A stretch of DNA of 64,000 nucleotides from Azospirillaceae bacterium. Its GTDB lineage: Bacteria; Pseudomonadota; Alphaproteobacteria; Azospirillales; Azospirillaceae. The notes beneath the pieces are model-generated. The model was not told the DNA's origin and made no database searches. It saw nothing but the letters and a program-made list of their open reading frames with translations. The translations under genes were made by a program, and so were the position numbers. This document shows, piece by piece, positions 7,933 through 14,101 of the stretch (position 1 is the stretch's first letter; each line of letters starts with the position of its first letter). Location: NCBI GenBank assembly GCA_031291675.1, contig JARLIO010000080.1, positions 1 through 64,000 of the forward strand. Reading direction: 5' to 3'.

Positions 7933-9810
7933 TCACTTCAGCGCCATGCTCAGACGAATGGCCTCAAAATATTTCTTGTCCTCCTGGACCAGGTGCGTCG
8001 CGACAATGTCATAGGCAAAAAACGAGGATAACTCACCGACGACCATCCTTCCCGCCGAATACTCTTCCCGCATCGCTTCGGCGCGCGTCCGAAGTCTTTC
8101 GTGTATTTCCTCATGCTCGGCCGTCAGCCGATGACCGATGGAGGCAAGCAGTATTTCCTCATCATGGAAATGCTCTGCCATAAGCGAGACCAGCGTGTGG
8201 ATTTGCCGCATGATCGCGACCTTGTCATGCTGACGCGCCGTCGCGGCCAACAACTCGTTGGCCCGTTCAACCAAAAGGCGATGCTGGAGATCAAGGACGG
8301 CATGGCCGGATTCGTAGCCGCTGTTCCAGATCAGGCGCAGGAAAGCTGCGTCCTGGACCTCGGCCTGAACCACCGCGCCATCGCTGCCGAGATCCGCGAT
8401 GACCCGATCGCGGCCGCTGGTTTTTGCCGTATAGAGCGCGGCGTCGGCGCGCGAGAGCCAGGACTCCCAGCTTTCGCCCGGGCGAAACTCGGCGACACCG
8501 AAGCTTGCTGTGACCGATTCCGCGACCGGAAATGGATGGTTGGCCATCGCCTTGCGAATCCGTTCCGCGAGCAGGCTCGCCGCCGTCACGCCGCTGTTTG
8601 GAACGATGATAAGAAACTCCTCGCCACCCCAACGGCCCAACTGATCGGTTGGCCGGATGCAACGCCGCACAAGGTCGCAAAAGGCGCGCAGCACCTCATC
8701 ACCGGCGCCATGACCATGCGTGTCATTGATCATTTTGAAATGATCGAGATCGACAAAGATCAGGGATACGGGGTGCCCATAGCGCGTGGTACGCAACCGC
8801 TCCATCTGCGCGAATTCTTCGATTCGGGCTCGATTTCGCGCCCCCGTCAAACCGTCATATTGGACCAGATGTTCGAGGGCCTCACGGGCCGCCGACAGTT
8901 CGGCCACGGTCTTGGTCAGTTCGCGATTCACGACTTCAAGATCGCGACTTCGCTCAACCACGGCGCGCTCGGCCCGGATTCGCTCGGTGATATCAACGAC
9001 GACACAAACCACGCCGCTCTGCTGACCCGGCATCAACTGTGAACTGATCTGCCCCCAAAAGCTGGTGCCATCGCCCCGCTGAAACTGACGTTCCAGTGTT
9101 ACTTTGGGAATGGCACTGCCTATGTGTGCAACGAGACGCTGTTGGGCCTCCTGCCGCTCGGAGGGATGGACCAATGTTGCGTACTCAAGGCGCACCAGCT
9201 TGTCCATCGGCAGCGCGAACATTTCAGCGGTCCGCTGATTGACGTTGTCAACCCGCCCCTTGTCATCAACAGTGAAAATAGCGGCGCTCGAGTTGTCGTA
9301 GATCAGGCGCAGCAGACTCTCCCGGTCGCGCAGAACCTCCTCGACCCGGCGCTGGTCGGTAATGTCCGTGCACAATGAGATCAGGCCGTCCGTGCCGAAG
9401 GGCTTGTCCTCGAGATCCAGGGTCTTCCCGCTGCTGAAGCGCCATTCGCGCCGTTGGCCCTGCCGCTCGGCCGCCTGCTGAACCGCGCGCGCGACCAGTT
9501 GGTCGATATCACCGGGGCCAAACATTCCGCGCTGCGCATAGAGGCGGGCAAGATCTGCGAAGGACGGCGGCCCCTCCCTGAAAATATCGTCGGGCAGATC
9601 CAGATAACACCGAAATAAGCGGCTGCAAACCACGACGTCCAGATTGCAATCGAACACGGCAACCCCGCAGGGAAGATGATCAACGATCGCCTGGATGACG
9701 TCAAAGCCGATCGGGTCCTCCACCAGATTCGTCAAGTTCATATCGCCGGGAGCTCCCTCCCGAACAATATTCAACTGTCTCGATGGTGATGTCCCCGATG
9801 GAAAATTCAT
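7933..9810 (-). CDS. PAS-PAS-GGDEF diguanylate cyclase with C-terminal bacteriohemerythrin domain
   Basis: 625 aa from the ATG at 9810 (MNFPSGTSPS); an ATG at 9741 behind GGGAGG is an alternative. An N-terminal PAS-7-like domain (~40-155) and a PAS/S-box (~165-280) lead through a short coiled coil to GGDEF (~315-475) with catalytic GGEEF at 395-399 and an intact product-inhibition site R386-P-T-D389. The C-terminal domain (~490-620) has the whole diiron set of hemerythrins: H510, H547, E551, H566, H570, H606 and D611. Prediction: cytoplasmic c-di-GMP synthesis tuned by O2 or redox state. The gene stands alone and faces the NodT gene. Confidence 0.92.
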   Translation of the reverse strand: MNFPSGTSPSRQLNIVREGAPGDMNLTNLVEDPIGFDVIQAIVDHLPCGVAVFDCNLDVVVCSRLFRCYLDLPDDIFREGPPSFADLARLYAQRGMFGPGDIDQLVARAVQQAAERQGQRREWRFSSGKTLDLEDKPFGTDGLISLCTDITDQRRVEEVLRDRESLLRLIYDNSSAAIFTVDDKGRVDNVNQRTAEMFALPMDKLVRLEYATLVHPSERQEAQQRLVAHIGSAIPKVTLERQFQRGDGTSFWGQISSQLMPGQQSGVVCVVVDITERIRAERAVVERSRDLEVVNRELTKTVAELSAAREALEHLVQYDGLTGARNRARIEEFAQMERLRTTRYGHPVSLIFVDLDHFKMINDTHGHGAGDEVLRAFCDLVRRCIRPTDQLGRWGGEEFLIIVPNSGVTAASLLAERIRKAMANHPFPVAESVTASFGVAEFRPGESWESWLSRADAALYTAKTSGRDRVIADLGSDGAVVQAEVQDAAFLRLIWNSGYESGHAVLDLQHRLLVERANELLAATARQHDKVAIMRQIHTLVSLMAEHFHDEEILLASIGHRLTAEHEEIHERLRTRAEAMREEYSAGRMVVGELSSFFAYDIVATHLVQEDKKYFEAIRLSMALK

Positions 9811-10190
9811 CGCTCGCCATTCTCTGATATTTAAATCAGATGGAGTGTTCCTTAAAAATGCGCACCAGAAACCACATCCAAAACCCGTCAAAGCACGTCA
9901 AGGTGACAACGCAAAGGCACACTTTACTTCTTATCGCATCAAGGCCGAAAAAATCAGTATACGGAAGGATAGCAGCGTTCCTCATTCGCGGCATGGCGCA
10001 AATCGCGCCCGAAAATGTCAAACATCATGGCGCACGAATATCAGTTGTCATGGTACGAAGAGGCCAAATATCGACCCCGATTCAATGACCCCTCATTGAA
10101 AGACACAATCGATTCGGGCTAAATCGATGAACATGCTGCGTCGATCGGGGGCGATGTTTCCTTGATGCGCGAGGCCGCGGGCGCGGGCCG
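9811..10190. other. Intergenic region upstream of the diguanylate cyclase
   Basis: About 380 bp, noticeably more AT-rich than its surroundings, lying between the cyclase start and the end of the radical SAM gene. Small ORFs on both strands resemble no known protein. It probably carries the cyclase promoter; no convincing sigma-70 box could be picked. Confidence 0.4.
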
Positions 10191-10215: not shown

Positions 10216-11313
10216 TCAAGGTTGCGAGGACAGCCGCACCGCCCGACGTTTGCGGCCCCAATCCCCGGGTTTCGCGTCAAACACGCCGGCAATCGCAGTG
10301 CCGCAAGCGGCGCACTGCCCGCTCGCGTCCAGCCCCCAGCGCCCCAGTTGATACCAGTCGCGTTCAATCAACAAGGCGCCGCAGTTCGGACAAACGGTGC
10401 TGCCGCCGGCCGGGTCATGGACATTGCCGGTGTAGACATAGCGCAAACCGTTGCCGATCGCGATGCGGCGTGCCCGCGTCAGGGTGGCCGCCGGGGTTGC
10501 CGCAGTCGCCGTCATTTTCCAGTCCGGATGGAACGCGCTGAAATGCAGCGGAACATCCGGCCCCAGATGATCAGCCACCCAGCGACTCAGCGCGTCCAGT
10601 TCGCGATCGGAATCGTTCTCGCCGGGAATCAACAGTGTCGTGATTTCCAGCCAGACCCCGGTCTCACGGTGCAGATACTCCAATGTTTCGAGAACCGGCC
10701 CCAGATGGGCAGAGCATAATTTTCGATAGAAGGCATCGCTGAAGCCCTTGAGGTCAACATTGGCCGCGTCGATATGGCCGTAGAAATCACGCCGTGCCGA
10801 GTCGGTCATATAGCCCGCGGTCACCGCGACGGTTTTCAGACCCAATGCCCGACAGGCGTCGGCGACGTCGGTGGCATATTCCAGAAACACCACGGGATCG
10901 TTGTAGGTGAAGGCGACACTGCGGCAGCCGAGATCGACCGCGGCCTGGGCGATGGTGGACGGCGCCGCGTCATCGTTGAGACGGTCGAGCGCGCGCGCTT
11001 TCGAGATGTCCCAGTTCTGGCAGAACTTGCAGGTCAGATTGCAGCCCGCGGTTCCGAATGACAAAACCGGCGTCCCGGGCAGAAAATGATTCAGCGGTTT
11101 CTTTTCGATCGGATCGACGCAAAACCCCGAGGAGCGGCCATAGGTCGCCAGAACCAGCGAGGCACCCTCGCGGGCCCGGACGAAACACAGTCCCCGCTGG
11201 CCATCATGCAATCGGCACAGACGTGGGCACAGATCACATTGCAACCGCCCGTCGGCAAGGGTGCGCCAGTGGCGGGCGGGAACGGTGGCGGATGGCGTCT
11301 TGCTGCGAAGCAT
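10216..11313 (-). CDS. amrS: AmmeMemoRadiSam system radical SAM enzyme
   Basis: 365 aa from the ATG at 11313, which has AGAGGGG upstream; a GTG at 11343 is in frame but poorer. The radical SAM [4Fe-4S] motif is CNLTCKFC (C91, C95, C98). Ahead of it is a Cys cluster (CDLCPRLC...GLC, C26/C29/C33/C43), and the C-terminus has a zinc-ribbon-like pair of CxxC (CPNCGALL and CAACGTAI). This layout is that of the PflA-related radical SAM protein encoded with Memo and AMMECR1 proteins. Its substrate is not established to my knowledge. Divergent from the Memo-AMMECR1 fusion, 139 bp between starts. Confidence 0.9.
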   Translation of the reverse strand: MLRSKTPSATVPARHWRTLADGRLQCDLCPRLCRLHDGQRGLCFVRAREGASLVLATYGRSSGFCVDPIEKKPLNHFLPGTPVLSFGTAGCNLTCKFCQNWDISKARALDRLNDDAAPSTIAQAAVDLGCRSVAFTYNDPVVFLEYATDVADACRALGLKTVAVTAGYMTDSARRDFYGHIDAANVDLKGFSDAFYRKLCSAHLGPVLETLEYLHRETGVWLEITTLLIPGENDSDRELDALSRWVADHLGPDVPLHFSAFHPDWKMTATAATPAATLTRARRIAIGNGLRYVYTGNVHDPAGGSTVCPNCGALLIERDWYQLGRWGLDASGQCAACGTAIAGVFDAKPGDWGRKRRAVRLSSQP

Positions 11314-11452
11314 TGCCAGGATCCCCCTCTTGTGCTCCGGCACGGACGCGGCGGCCGGGATCTCTCGAATACATGGTACCGAACCCCCGTTTCGCGCTAT
11401 GATCTCTTCGGTTTTTGTGGGAATTCCCCCTCCCCCACAGCGAGGTGCCGCG

Positions 11453-12925
11453 ATGACTTCGATCCGCGAGACGGCTGTGGCCGGCGCCTTCTATCCGGCG
11501 GCTGCCGGCCCGTTGCAGGCCATGATCGAATCCTGTCTCGCCGACACCGAACAGAAGGTGACGCAGCCCGTGGCGCGGGATCCGCGCCTGCCAAAGGCAA
11601 TTATCGTCCCCCATGCCGGTTACATCTATTCCGGACCGATCGCCGCCAGCGCCTATGCCCGGCTGCGGCCGCTGCGCGGCCGCATCACCCGCGTTGTCCT
11701 GATCGGCCCGTCGCACCGGGTCGCCTTCACCGGTCTCGCGGTGACCGGCGCCCGCGCTTATCAGACGCCGTTTGGGCCGGTGGCCCTCGATCGGCCGGCC
11801 ATCGAAGCGCTGCTCACCCTGCCCGAGGTCGTGGAACTCGACGAGGCCCACGGGCCAGAACACAGCCTCGAAGTCCAGCTGCCGTTCCTGATCCATGTGC
11901 TGGGGCCGTTCACGCTGGTGCCGATCGTCGCCGGTTTCGCCACACCGGACGCCGTCGCCCGGGTGCTTGAGCGGGTGTGGGGCGGACCGGAAACCTTGAT
12001 CGTTGTCAGCTCCGATTTAAGCCACTACCTGGACGATGCCGCGGCGAAACGGCTCGACGCCCTGACCGCAACAGCCATCGAGCAACGGGATCCCGAGCGC
12101 ATTGGCGACAGCCAGGCCTGCGGCCAGGTCCCGGTGCGCGGTCTGCTGGCATTGGCCCGACGCAAGGACCTGACGGTCGAGACCCTCGATCTGCGCAACT
12201 CGGGCGACACGGCCGGTGATCGGAACCGGGTTGTCGGCTATGGCGCCTGGGCGCTCTATGAACCTGTGGCGCAAAGCGGTGCGCTGGACGTCGATCGGGC
12301 CCGCATCATGGCCTGGGGCCCCACGCTCGGGCGCATTGCCCGTCTGTCGATCGAGTCCGGCCTTGACCATGGCCGCCCCCTGACCGTTGCCGATGGCTCG
12401 TTCACCGATGTCGGGCGGGAACCGGGCGCGGCCTATGTCACCCTGCACCTGCGGGGTGAGTTGCGCGGCTGCGTGGGCTCACCACGGGCGTGGCGAGCGC
12501 TGGTCATGGATGTCGCCGAAAATGCCTTCAACGCCGCCTTCCGGGACACCCGCTTCGCGCCCCTGACCGCCCGCGAGTGGCCGGATTGCACACTGACGAT
12601 CGCCGTGCTGACGCCGCTGCACCTCCTGCACTTTGCCGACGAAGCCGATCTGTGCGCCCAATTGCGACCCGGGATCGATGGCCTGCTGATCGAGGACCAC
12701 AATCACGGGGCGCTGTTCCTGCCCGCGGTGTGGCACACCGTGCCCGACCCCACCGAGTTCCTGCGACATTTGAAACACAAGGCGGGGTTGGCCGCGACCT
12801 GGTGGTCCCCCAGCTTTCGCGCGATGCGCTTCACCGCGATCGAGGTCCCCCTGGACGCACCGGCGACCGGCACCGATGCTCCCGTTTCCGCGGCTGCCCA
12901 ACCCGGCACAGTGAAACATGATTGA
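11453..12925 (+). CDS. Memo-AMMECR1 fusion protein (AmmeMemoRadiSam B-A)
   Basis: 490 aa from the ATG at 11453 (MTSIRETAVAGAFYPAAAG, with GAGGTG upstream); the longer upstream frame is shadow of the divergent gene. Residues ~1-275 are a Memo domain, structurally akin to extradiol dioxygenases: IIVPHAGYIYSGPIAA, LIGPSHR, VSSDLSHYLDD and ACGQVPV supply the conserved His/Asp/Cys positions. Residues ~290-470 are an AMMECR1 domain with LRGCVGSPRAW near 336 and the conserved VWHTVPDPTEFL stretch. Separate genes in many organisms, the two are fused here, which supports joint action. No biochemical role is asserted. Confidence 0.9.
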   Translation: MTSIRETAVAGAFYPAAAGPLQAMIESCLADTEQKVTQPVARDPRLPKAIIVPHAGYIYSGPIAASAYARLRPLRGRITRVVLIGPSHRVAFTGLAVTGARAYQTPFGPVALDRPAIEALLTLPEVVELDEAHGPEHSLEVQLPFLIHVLGPFTLVPIVAGFATPDAVARVLERVWGGPETLIVVSSDLSHYLDDAAAKRLDALTATAIEQRDPERIGDSQACGQVPVRGLLALARRKDLTVETLDLRNSGDTAGDRNRVVGYGAWALYEPVAQSGALDVDRARIMAWGPTLGRIARLSIESGLDHGRPLTVADGSFTDVGREPGAAYVTLHLRGELRGCVGSPRAWRALVMDVAENAFNAAFRDTRFAPLTAREWPDCTLTIAVLTPLHLLHFADEADLCAQLRPGIDGLLIEDHNHGALFLPAVWHTVPDPTEFLRHLKHKAGLAATWWSPSFRAMRFTAIEVPLDAPATGTDAPVSAAAQPGTVKHD

Positions 12926-12979: not shown

Positions 12980-14101
12980 ATGACCAGCCCTTTCGGCGCG
13001 CTCAGCCTTGACGACGCACTAACCCTCGCAACCCGATGGCATCGGGAGGGGCAGGCCGACCAGGCCGAAGGACTATACGGGGCGATTGTTCGGGCGCAGC
13101 CCGATCATTTTGCGGCATCGTTGCAGTTGGGCATTCTTCTCGAACAACGGGGTAACCCAGAAGGGGCCTTGGCCTGTTACGAGACGGCCATTCGCGTCAA
13201 TCCAGGCCATGCGTTGGCATTCACACGCCGCGCGCTGATTCTGCTGCGTCGTCAATGGGGATCCCCGATCGCCGCCTTGCCGCCGCCGATGGCGGGGACG
13301 CCGCGGATTGGCATGTCCTCGTTGGGAAGCAACGGCCGTTTTGGCAATCAATTGTTACAATACGCCGTCCTGCGACTTTACGGTGCCGAGCACGGAATAT
13401 CGGTGGAAACACCGGATTGGATCGGGCGCGATTTGTTCGAATTGAATGATCCGTGGTTATCCGCCGGGTTGGTGCCGCTGCGCGAAGAGGATGCCGATCT
13501 TGCGGCGTCGTTGAACCGATCATCGGCAATCGTGTACCGGGGCGTGGACGTCCGCGGTTACTTTGCCTGGCACACGGCAGCATTCGTCCGGCATAAGGCA
13601 TTGTTTCAGAGTCTGTTCCGGCTCGGATCCAAAGCCGCAACTGCGATCGCGCCGCCCGTGGCGAGGCTGCGCGCCCGCGGAAGAACACTGGTCGCGCTTC
13701 ATATACGCCACGGCGATTTCGGCTATGGTCCGTTTTGGATTGCACCCTCGGCCTGGTACCGCGACTGGCTGCAACAGATATGGACGGATCTCGATGATCC
13801 CGTGTTGTACCTGGCGACAGACGATCCGACCGTGATCCGGGATTTTGTCGACTTCCGCCCGATCAGTTCCGCGGATCTGATGGCGCCGCTCCCGGGGGCC
13901 GAGTTCCTGTTGGATTTCGAGGTCCTGGCCGAGGCCGATGTGGTCGCCATCGCCAACAGCAGCTTTTCGCGCGTGGCCAGCATGCTCAACAACCAAGGTC
14001 GATGCTTCATGCGTCCCAACCCTGACCGCCGCGCGATGGTCGCCTTCGACCCCTGGGACAGCCCGATGCAACTCTCTGCCGAAGCGGCCGCGGTGGCTTG
14101 A
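12980..14101 (+). CDS. TPR protein with alpha-1,2-fucosyltransferase-like (GT11-type) domain
   Basis: 373 aa. Residues ~15-90 contain two TPR-like helical pairs (QAEGLYGAIVRAQPDHFAAS, GALACYETAIRVNPGHA). The rest shows GT11-like motifs: LGSNGRFGNQLLQYAVLRLYG (~110-130, like GRLGNQLFQYA), VALHIRHGDFGYG (HxRxGD, nucleotide-sugar binding) and ANSSFSRVASMLN near the end. Enzymes of this type transfer fucose or a similar 6-deoxysugar from a GDP-sugar; donor and acceptor are inferred only. Convergent with a second glycosyltransferase (42-bp gap). Together they could decorate a surface glycan or flagellin. Confidence 0.8.
   Translation: MTSPFGALSLDDALTLATRWHREGQADQAEGLYGAIVRAQPDHFAASLQLGILLEQRGNPEGALACYETAIRVNPGHALAFTRRALILLRRQWGSPIAALPPPMAGTPRIGMSSLGSNGRFGNQLLQYAVLRLYGAEHGISVETPDWIGRDLFELNDPWLSAGLVPLREEDADLAASLNRSSAIVYRGVDVRGYFAWHTAAFVRHKALFQSLFRLGSKAATAIAPPVARLRARGRTLVALHIRHGDFGYGPFWIAPSAWYRDWLQQIWTDLDDPVLYLATDDPTVIRDFVDFRPISSADLMAPLPGAEFLLDFEVLAEADVVAIANSSFSRVASMLNNQGRCFMRPNPDRRAMVAFDPWDSPMQLSAEAAAVA

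Follow-up and report, generated by a model that had tools for sequence, protein, structure and literature searches.

When a gene for a radical S-adenosylmethionine (SAM) enzyme lies divergently beside a gene that joins a Memo domain to an AMMECR1 domain, does the arrangement mean that the three families act on one substrate? This question is raised by a locus in a 64,000-nucleotide stretch of DNA (hereafter the window; contig JARLIO010000080.1, positions 1 to 64,000, assembly GCA_031291675.1) from an Azospirillaceae bacterium. The first-pass annotation, made from the letters alone, had placed such a pair at 10216-12925, and NCBIfam and Pfam profiles bear this out, with the start of the fusion corrected. 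The window cassette is a genuine, complete and ordinary member of the already named trio amrS, amrB and amrA, in which fused forms are common. The further claim, that the three families share a single substrate, is plausible but unproven.

A complete cassette with conserved metal and cluster ligands

The window proteins exceed all three NCBIfam models of the AmmeMemoRadiSam system, for which the cut-offs are 220 bits (TIGR04337), 26 bits (TIGR04336) and 99 bits (TIGR04335), and these profile scores exclude a chance match for either gene (Table 1). Within the open reading frame (ORF) 11261-12925 (+), PF01875 (Memo) was matched at residues 71-329 with 173.9 bits and, with no stop intervening, PF01871 (AMMECR1) at residues 358-527 of the same frame with 129.7 bits. 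The fusion probably starts at the ATG at 11453, which has a GAGG ahead of it and corresponds to residue 65 in the listed ORF, and not at 11261, since that position falls within the radical SAM gene. The radical SAM gene may in turn start at the ATG at 11313, where AGAGGGGG was read by eye upstream, instead of at the GTG at 11343. A single Memo match, a single AMMECR1 match and a single radical SAM match over the cut-off were found in the window genome, together with a weak radical SAM match of 52.9 bits.

Alignments support the Memo half as a homologue of MEMO1 with a predicted His/His/Cys metal site. When aligned to the human structure 7kq8, window residues H118, H152 and C287 fall on H49, H81 and C244, which are given as the iron ligands of MEMO1 in the portion consulted of PMC11081632, and the human counterpart proposed in the first-pass annotation is thereby upheld for this half of the protein. 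H118 and H152 are each conserved in 58 of 59 rows and C287 in 56 of 59, the remaining rows being gapped. The same three residues are present in all 43 rows of a profile that combined the window with 42 of the 47 other fused rows (L087, L097, L098, L111 and L117 were excluded) and that covers nearly all of MEMO1 7kq8. The two-His-one-carboxylate site of extradiol enzymes is absent, the third ligand being Cys in 56 of 56 ungapped rows. In the AMMECR1 half, C404 of the LRGC motif is Cys in 44 of 44 rows, and in 42 of 43 rows of set A1, where the other row has Ser. An AlphaFold2 (AF2) model of the fusion (pLDDT 90.7, pTM 0.76) matched, in order, iron-bound MEMO1, archaeal AMMECR1 proteins, and extradiol dioxygenases including aminophenol dioxygenases in the PDB; the archaeal relatives compared for the AMMECR1 domain were 1vaj, 1zq7 and 1wsc.

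Numbered from the GTG, the radical SAM protein carries the CxxxCxxC cluster motif at C101, C105 and C108, with further cysteines in its N-terminal (C36, C39, C43, C53) and C-terminal (C318, C321, C344, C347) parts. All 11, including the cluster motif, are kept in 81 of 81 near-relative rows, and across the 39 rows of the broader A2 set C321 is nearly invariant and the remaining ten are fully so. The best PDB match of its AF2 model (pLDDT 88.0, pTM 0.89) is the pyruvate formate-lyase activase 3cb8, with a target TM-score of 0.80 and 18% identity.

Table 1. Features of the cassette, in positions of the window.
Feature	Positions	Strand	Basis or remark
amrS-like radical SAM enzyme	10216..11343	-	TIGR04337 629 bits (cut-off 220); Pfam Radical_SAM
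Divergent intergenic region, about 110-140 bases	11314..11452		Between both starts
amrB-amrA fusion, Memo then AMMECR1	11453..12925	+	TIGR04336 257.6 bits and TIGR04335 167.1 bits, one frame
Memo domain	11465..12253	+	Residues 69-331 of the 11261 ORF
AMMECR1 domain	12326..12841	+	Residues 356-527 of the 11261 ORF; TIGR04335

Co-occurrence, fusion history and a LigB-type replacement

Co-conservation of the three families, whose lack the first-pass annotation had named as evidence against its proposal, was found in both genome samples. In the phylum sample (199 genomes, at least 90% complete), radical SAM proteins over the cut-off were present in 65 genomes, Memo in 62, AMMECR1 in 61, and all three in 60; co-occurrence of radical SAM with Memo gave a Fisher p of 4e-45, uncorrected for kinship, and one genome (G109) had Memo without the radical SAM enzyme. 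The order sample comprised 82 genomes, searched with E-value limits of 1e-60 (radical SAM), 1e-15 (Memo) and 1e-10 (AMMECR1). Here the counts were 13, 12 and 12, with all three in 12 genomes, while G245 had only a distant radical SAM protein (238.8 bits) and 69 of the 82 had no match at the set limits. Memo and AMMECR1 were fused in 12 of 12 order cassettes, as judged by equal open-frame lengths, and the radical SAM gene was adjacent and divergent in 11, the twelfth genome (G278) having it and the fusion on separate contigs. By this pattern, the cassette is for the most part present or absent as a whole inside one bacterial family, all 82 genomes being labelled as the same family. Among control genomes, Thermotoga maritima, Methanocaldococcus jannaschii, Sulfolobus acidocaldarius and Methanosarcina acetivorans had all three, Thermus composti had Memo alone (the radical SAM family was judged over the cut-off) and Haloferax volcanii had AMMECR1 alone. 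Three of the four hosts of the complete trio are strict anaerobes, and therefore an oxygen-dependent reaction cannot be general.

Gene arrangement was compared in 81 loci, namely the window and the best 80 radical SAM relatives among the matches listed, with architecture assigned by bit thresholds. Fifteen loci had the fusion, 28 had three separate genes, 16 had Memo and radical SAM, one had AMMECR1 and radical SAM, and 21 had radical SAM alone, some of the incomplete loci (L031, L072, L073, L079, L066) being truncated where a contig ends, or broken. Where Memo and radical SAM genes lay no more than 6 kb apart, 57 pairs were divergent, 31 tandem and 2 convergent, with one further pair more distant. 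Divergence prevailed in the first set (55 of 62) and tandem order in the fetched phylum loci holding both genes (26 of 28), many of the fetched stretches being too short to reach the radical SAM gene or having it on another contig; the divergent excess in the first set probably reflects the near relatives of the window gene.

Of the 123 Memo rows, 48 carry AMMECR1 in fusion, the linker ranging from 13 to 109 residues. In the phylum sample, 26 of the 62 genomes with Memo have it fused; here equal open frames were the criterion, and the fused ORFs were found again after fetching. Comparing the fused and split forms by phylogeny, as had been proposed, revealed that fused forms do not make up one clade: on a Memo tree whose bootstrap had not settled (correlation 0.950), and from which a duplicate and two rows whose state was unknown were dropped, the fused label required 11 changes, at least seven of them on starred, well-supported branches, and a single clade of fused rows was rejected by the approximately unbiased (AU) test with p 3.4e-5. 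One row (G088, L124) is fused inside an otherwise split group of eight. These results support repeated joining or splitting of Memo and AMMECR1, gains and losses being indistinguishable. Such recurrence speaks for a functional link more strongly than one fusion would, yet neighbours in such an order can fuse easily. Memo comes first in all 48 fusions, and therefore the loss of a stop between neighbours suffices to explain them. No ORF joining the radical SAM enzyme to Memo or AMMECR1 was found in L002-L151 or in the first 20 kb of the window.

A second, divergent type of cassette was also observed (L082-L088), with radical SAM scores of about 360-400 bits and its own Memo-AMMECR1 fusion, mostly in genomes that also have the main type; these cassettes are in tandem except L084, where the radical SAM gene is about 9 kb off. 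Seven paralogous radical SAM matches, each near a Memo-AMMECR1 fusion on the same contig, had been flagged with an inner TGA, and selenocysteine was considered and rejected for these seven, further flagged matches being present in G084, G116 and G245: in L082-L086 the codon is an ordinary stop after ...GVWT or ...GVWA, and a profile re-search of L087 and L088 showed no inner stop.

In two metagenome-assembled genomes (MAGs), a LigB-type domain stands where Memo would be expected. A Verrucomicrobiaceae MAG (L033, 8575-9972) encodes a LigB-AMMECR1 fusion beside the radical SAM gene (PF02900 121.6 bits, PF01871 135.1 bits), with no Memo match in the genome. In a Blastocatellia MAG (G224; L158:895-2334), again with no Memo match, LigB lies six bases ahead of AMMECR1 on the same strand. 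The contig with its radical SAM locus (L069) is 84,032 bases long, and since the pair is at about 86 kb of contig C56, the two must be on different contigs. These are the sole genomes with AMMECR1 and no Memo among 32 searched whole, and although LigB matches were found in 11 of the 32, only in these two do they adjoin AMMECR1. The motifs HPP, SPHSP and SYEGPFGVGY, read by eye in the LigB-AMMECR1 proteins, are taken as the putative metal site. Since LigB replaces Memo beside AMMECR1 in both cases, they suggest that Memo is a catalytic metal domain, and they offer a comparative handle on the role of its metal site. A bolder version, which we regard as less likely than not, is that the Memo slot is a catalytic-dioxygenase slot, in which Memo and LigB (with two His and one Glu by motif) would stand in for each other, working on a substrate that AMMECR1 presents once the radical step is done. 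If so, MEMO1 and AMMECR1 in humans would be what is left of a single enzyme pair, and the chemistry would be more readily guessed for the LigB-AMMECR1 version. Three pattern matches in viral contigs were all unrelated to the LigB-AMMECR1 protein. The AMMECR1 of another genome (G230, L153) sits in a long open frame.

What the cassette may do

We propose, as an evenly balanced proposition, that the complete AmmeMemoRadiSam cassette works as one metal and radical modification unit. The radical SAM enzyme would cleave SAM and make or prime a modification through hydrogen abstraction, the AMMECR1 domain would bind the substrate, and the Memo domain, with a predicted Fe(II) site formed by two His residues and a Cys, might then act on the product in a second step. 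Fusing Memo to AMMECR1 would serve to pass the substrate, once bound, on to this metal site. The leading candidates for that substrate would be a nucleobase in RNA or a peptide. The bacterial trio ties MEMO1 and AMMECR1, both linked to human disease and neither, to our knowledge, with a known reaction, to one pathway, and the fused version means that reconstitution needs only two proteins.

Several observations weigh against a single unit with one substrate. In the phylum sample, Memo was found without AMMECR1 in G159, and four genomes had a radical SAM protein over the cut-off without Memo (G022, G127, G174, G185). The protein of G127 is divergent and that of G185 broken, but those of G022 (610 bits) and G174 (624 bits) are full-scoring, and in G174 neither Memo nor AMMECR1 was found. 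Partners were also missing from 38 of the 81 loci, and 32 genomes chosen for incomplete loci were searched whole, leaving out six whose genes run off contig ends (L014, L031, L072, L073, L077, L079). Memo was found in 27 of these and AMMECR1 in 19, with both in 17, Memo only in 10, AMMECR1 only in two and neither in three. Thus, 10 of 27 Memo-bearing genomes in this set gave no AMMECR1 match; absences in so MAG-rich a set are not always real, and MAGs make up most of the 10, although one, Microvirga vignae, is an isolate. Halomonas beimenensis (L074:9971-11080, G226) has the radical SAM gene, and its genome gave no match to Memo or to AMMECR1. Human MEMO1 showed no dioxygenase activity on the substrates tried, according to the part consulted of PMC11081632, and the neighbour clusters annotated gave no substrate hint from the wider neighbourhood. 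Fusion and co-occurrence place the families in a common process; they do not establish a common substrate. The step from fusion to one substrate, made in the first-pass annotation, is weakened by the Memo-first order, the lack of radical SAM fusions and the separable parts.

Three loci merit description in their own right. The radical SAM gene of G185 (L091:4303-5360), a genome with no Memo or AMMECR1 match, is broken in two by an inner TAG and a frame change, and is possibly part of a decaying cassette. In G127 (L092:5166-9121), a sibling radical SAM gene is directly followed by two pyridoxal phosphate enzymes, one of the Cys/Met metabolism type and one aminotransferase. On a Gemmatimonadota chromosome (L041:8109-11080), a pair of TIGR04337-like radical SAM genes stands back to back, and the Memo and AMMECR1 matches of that genome lie away from this locus.

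As to the substrate, modification of an RNA nucleobase, with AMMECR1 as the RNA- or nucleotide-binding part, seems to us rather doubtful. RlmN and TYW1 are among the fold matches of the radical SAM enzyme, alongside many unrelated radical SAM enzymes, and the tRNA modification gene Sua5 lies near nine Rhodospirillales-like loci. Balaji and Aravind in 2007 and Burroughs in 2019 are said to have put AMMECR1 in a nucleic-acid- or nucleotide-binding fold and to have tied Memo contexts to base modification; the 2019 abstract reportedly ties Memo to base and isoprenoid modification. The Sua5 cluster, however, is lineage-limited and is not represented in the window's first 24 kb, and the patchy presence of the cassette within one bacterial family (12 of 82 genomes) argues against a core RNA modification. 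Modification of a peptide or protein, RiPP-like or post-translational, we consider unlikely. The closest fold match of the radical SAM enzyme, pyruvate formate-lyase activase, acts on a protein glycyl residue, and some Rhodospirillales-like loci have a gene for leucyl aminopeptidase (M17) close to the radical SAM gene, but this neighbour too is lineage-limited. A related radical SAM domain is reported in peptide-processing systems in the part consulted of PMC7159879. No conserved short precursor gene was found, in a clustering that left out ORFs under 80 amino acids and so hardly probed for one.

Two further explanations depart from a joint modification altogether. Human MEMO1 binds iron and copper and showed no enzyme activity on the substrates tried (PMC11081632, in the part consulted), as would be expected if Memo-AMMECR1 were a metal-handling or redox-buffering protein and not an enzyme; the near-constant association with the radical SAM enzyme and the two cases of LigB by AMMECR1 suit catalysis better, and we judge this reading quite improbable. 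The idea that the radical SAM protein is a glycyl radical enzyme activase like PflA, with Memo-AMMECR1 as an accessory, draws on its best PDB matches, which by sequence and by fold are pyruvate formate-lyase activase, on weak NCBIfam matches below the cut-off that are largely activases, and on one Gly_radical match in the window genome, on a different contig. Yet six of the 12 order genomes with the cassette have neither Gly_radical nor NRDD, the other six, the window genome included, having Gly_radical and none of the 12 an NRDD match; Gly_radical is about as frequent in cassette-free order genomes (38 of 70, Fisher p 1.0, uncorrected for kinship), and no glycyl radical gene was found within the ten annotated neighbour clusters. 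An activase role is not supported, given that Gly_radical is without association to the cassette in the 82 order genomes, and we hold it very improbable.

Neighbourhood and relation to known systems

In the 81 loci, 28 neighbour clusters each occurred in at least four. Clusters 0 and 1 are the trio with opposite-strand ORFs, and the representatives of clusters 1-4, which lie inside the trio genes on the opposite strand, are taken as shadow ORFs. Ten further clusters were annotated: inositol monophosphatase, Sua5, aminopeptidase M17 and a lysylphosphatidylglycerol synthase transmembrane protein come mostly from Rhodospirillales-like loci, and the lineage-spanning clusters are generic and scattered in position (ABC ATPase in 11 loci, GGDEF-EAL in 8). 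No shared partner was found among the neighbours of four trio-incomplete loci and one sibling radical SAM gene. The divergent intergenic region of the window contained no sigma-70-type promoter consensus, and five regulator-like patterns gave no match in 54 divergent intergenic stretches, each including 40 bases of either domain; a CCGGC dyad with spacing 4 occurred in 11 of the 54, as a raw count. PADLOC gave no match for the fusion and only a weak pVip match (E 7e-4) for the radical SAM protein. In the window itself, a PAS-GGDEF protein with a C-terminal hemerythrin domain (7933-9891, -) lies downstream of the radical SAM gene on the same strand, and a TPR protein (12980-14101, +), absent from the listed neighbour clusters 5-27, starts 54 bases past the fusion, also on its strand.

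The cassette can be compared with four known systems. The radical SAM core is common to the window enzyme and pyruvate formate-lyase activating enzyme, but the window enzyme has extra N- and C-terminal Cys sets and no consistent glycyl radical partner. Class III extradiol dioxygenases (LigB, aminophenol dioxygenase) are related to Memo in fold, and LigB fills the Memo place in L033 and G224; the third metal ligand is Cys in Memo and Glu in LigB, as compared in the part consulted of PMC11081632. Human MEMO1 (7kq8, 3bcz) has the same fold and the same His/His/Cys ligands as the window Memo domain, with 26% identity, and is a single Memo domain. Among the titles and opening lines of abstracts found by literature search, none reported a reaction for the bacterial AmmeMemoRadiSam system. 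Its genes are called amrA, amrB and amrS in the text seen of PMC9062700, and PMC7159879, likewise in part, cites Memo-AMMECR1 systems as described by Burroughs et al. 2019. A fused amrB adjoining amrS is annotated in Ideonella dechloratans. The window shares all parts of this system (TIGR04335, TIGR04336, TIGR04337; amrA, amrB, amrS), adjacent to one another, and differs from it in nothing of substance, the Memo-AMMECR1 fusion being already common there.

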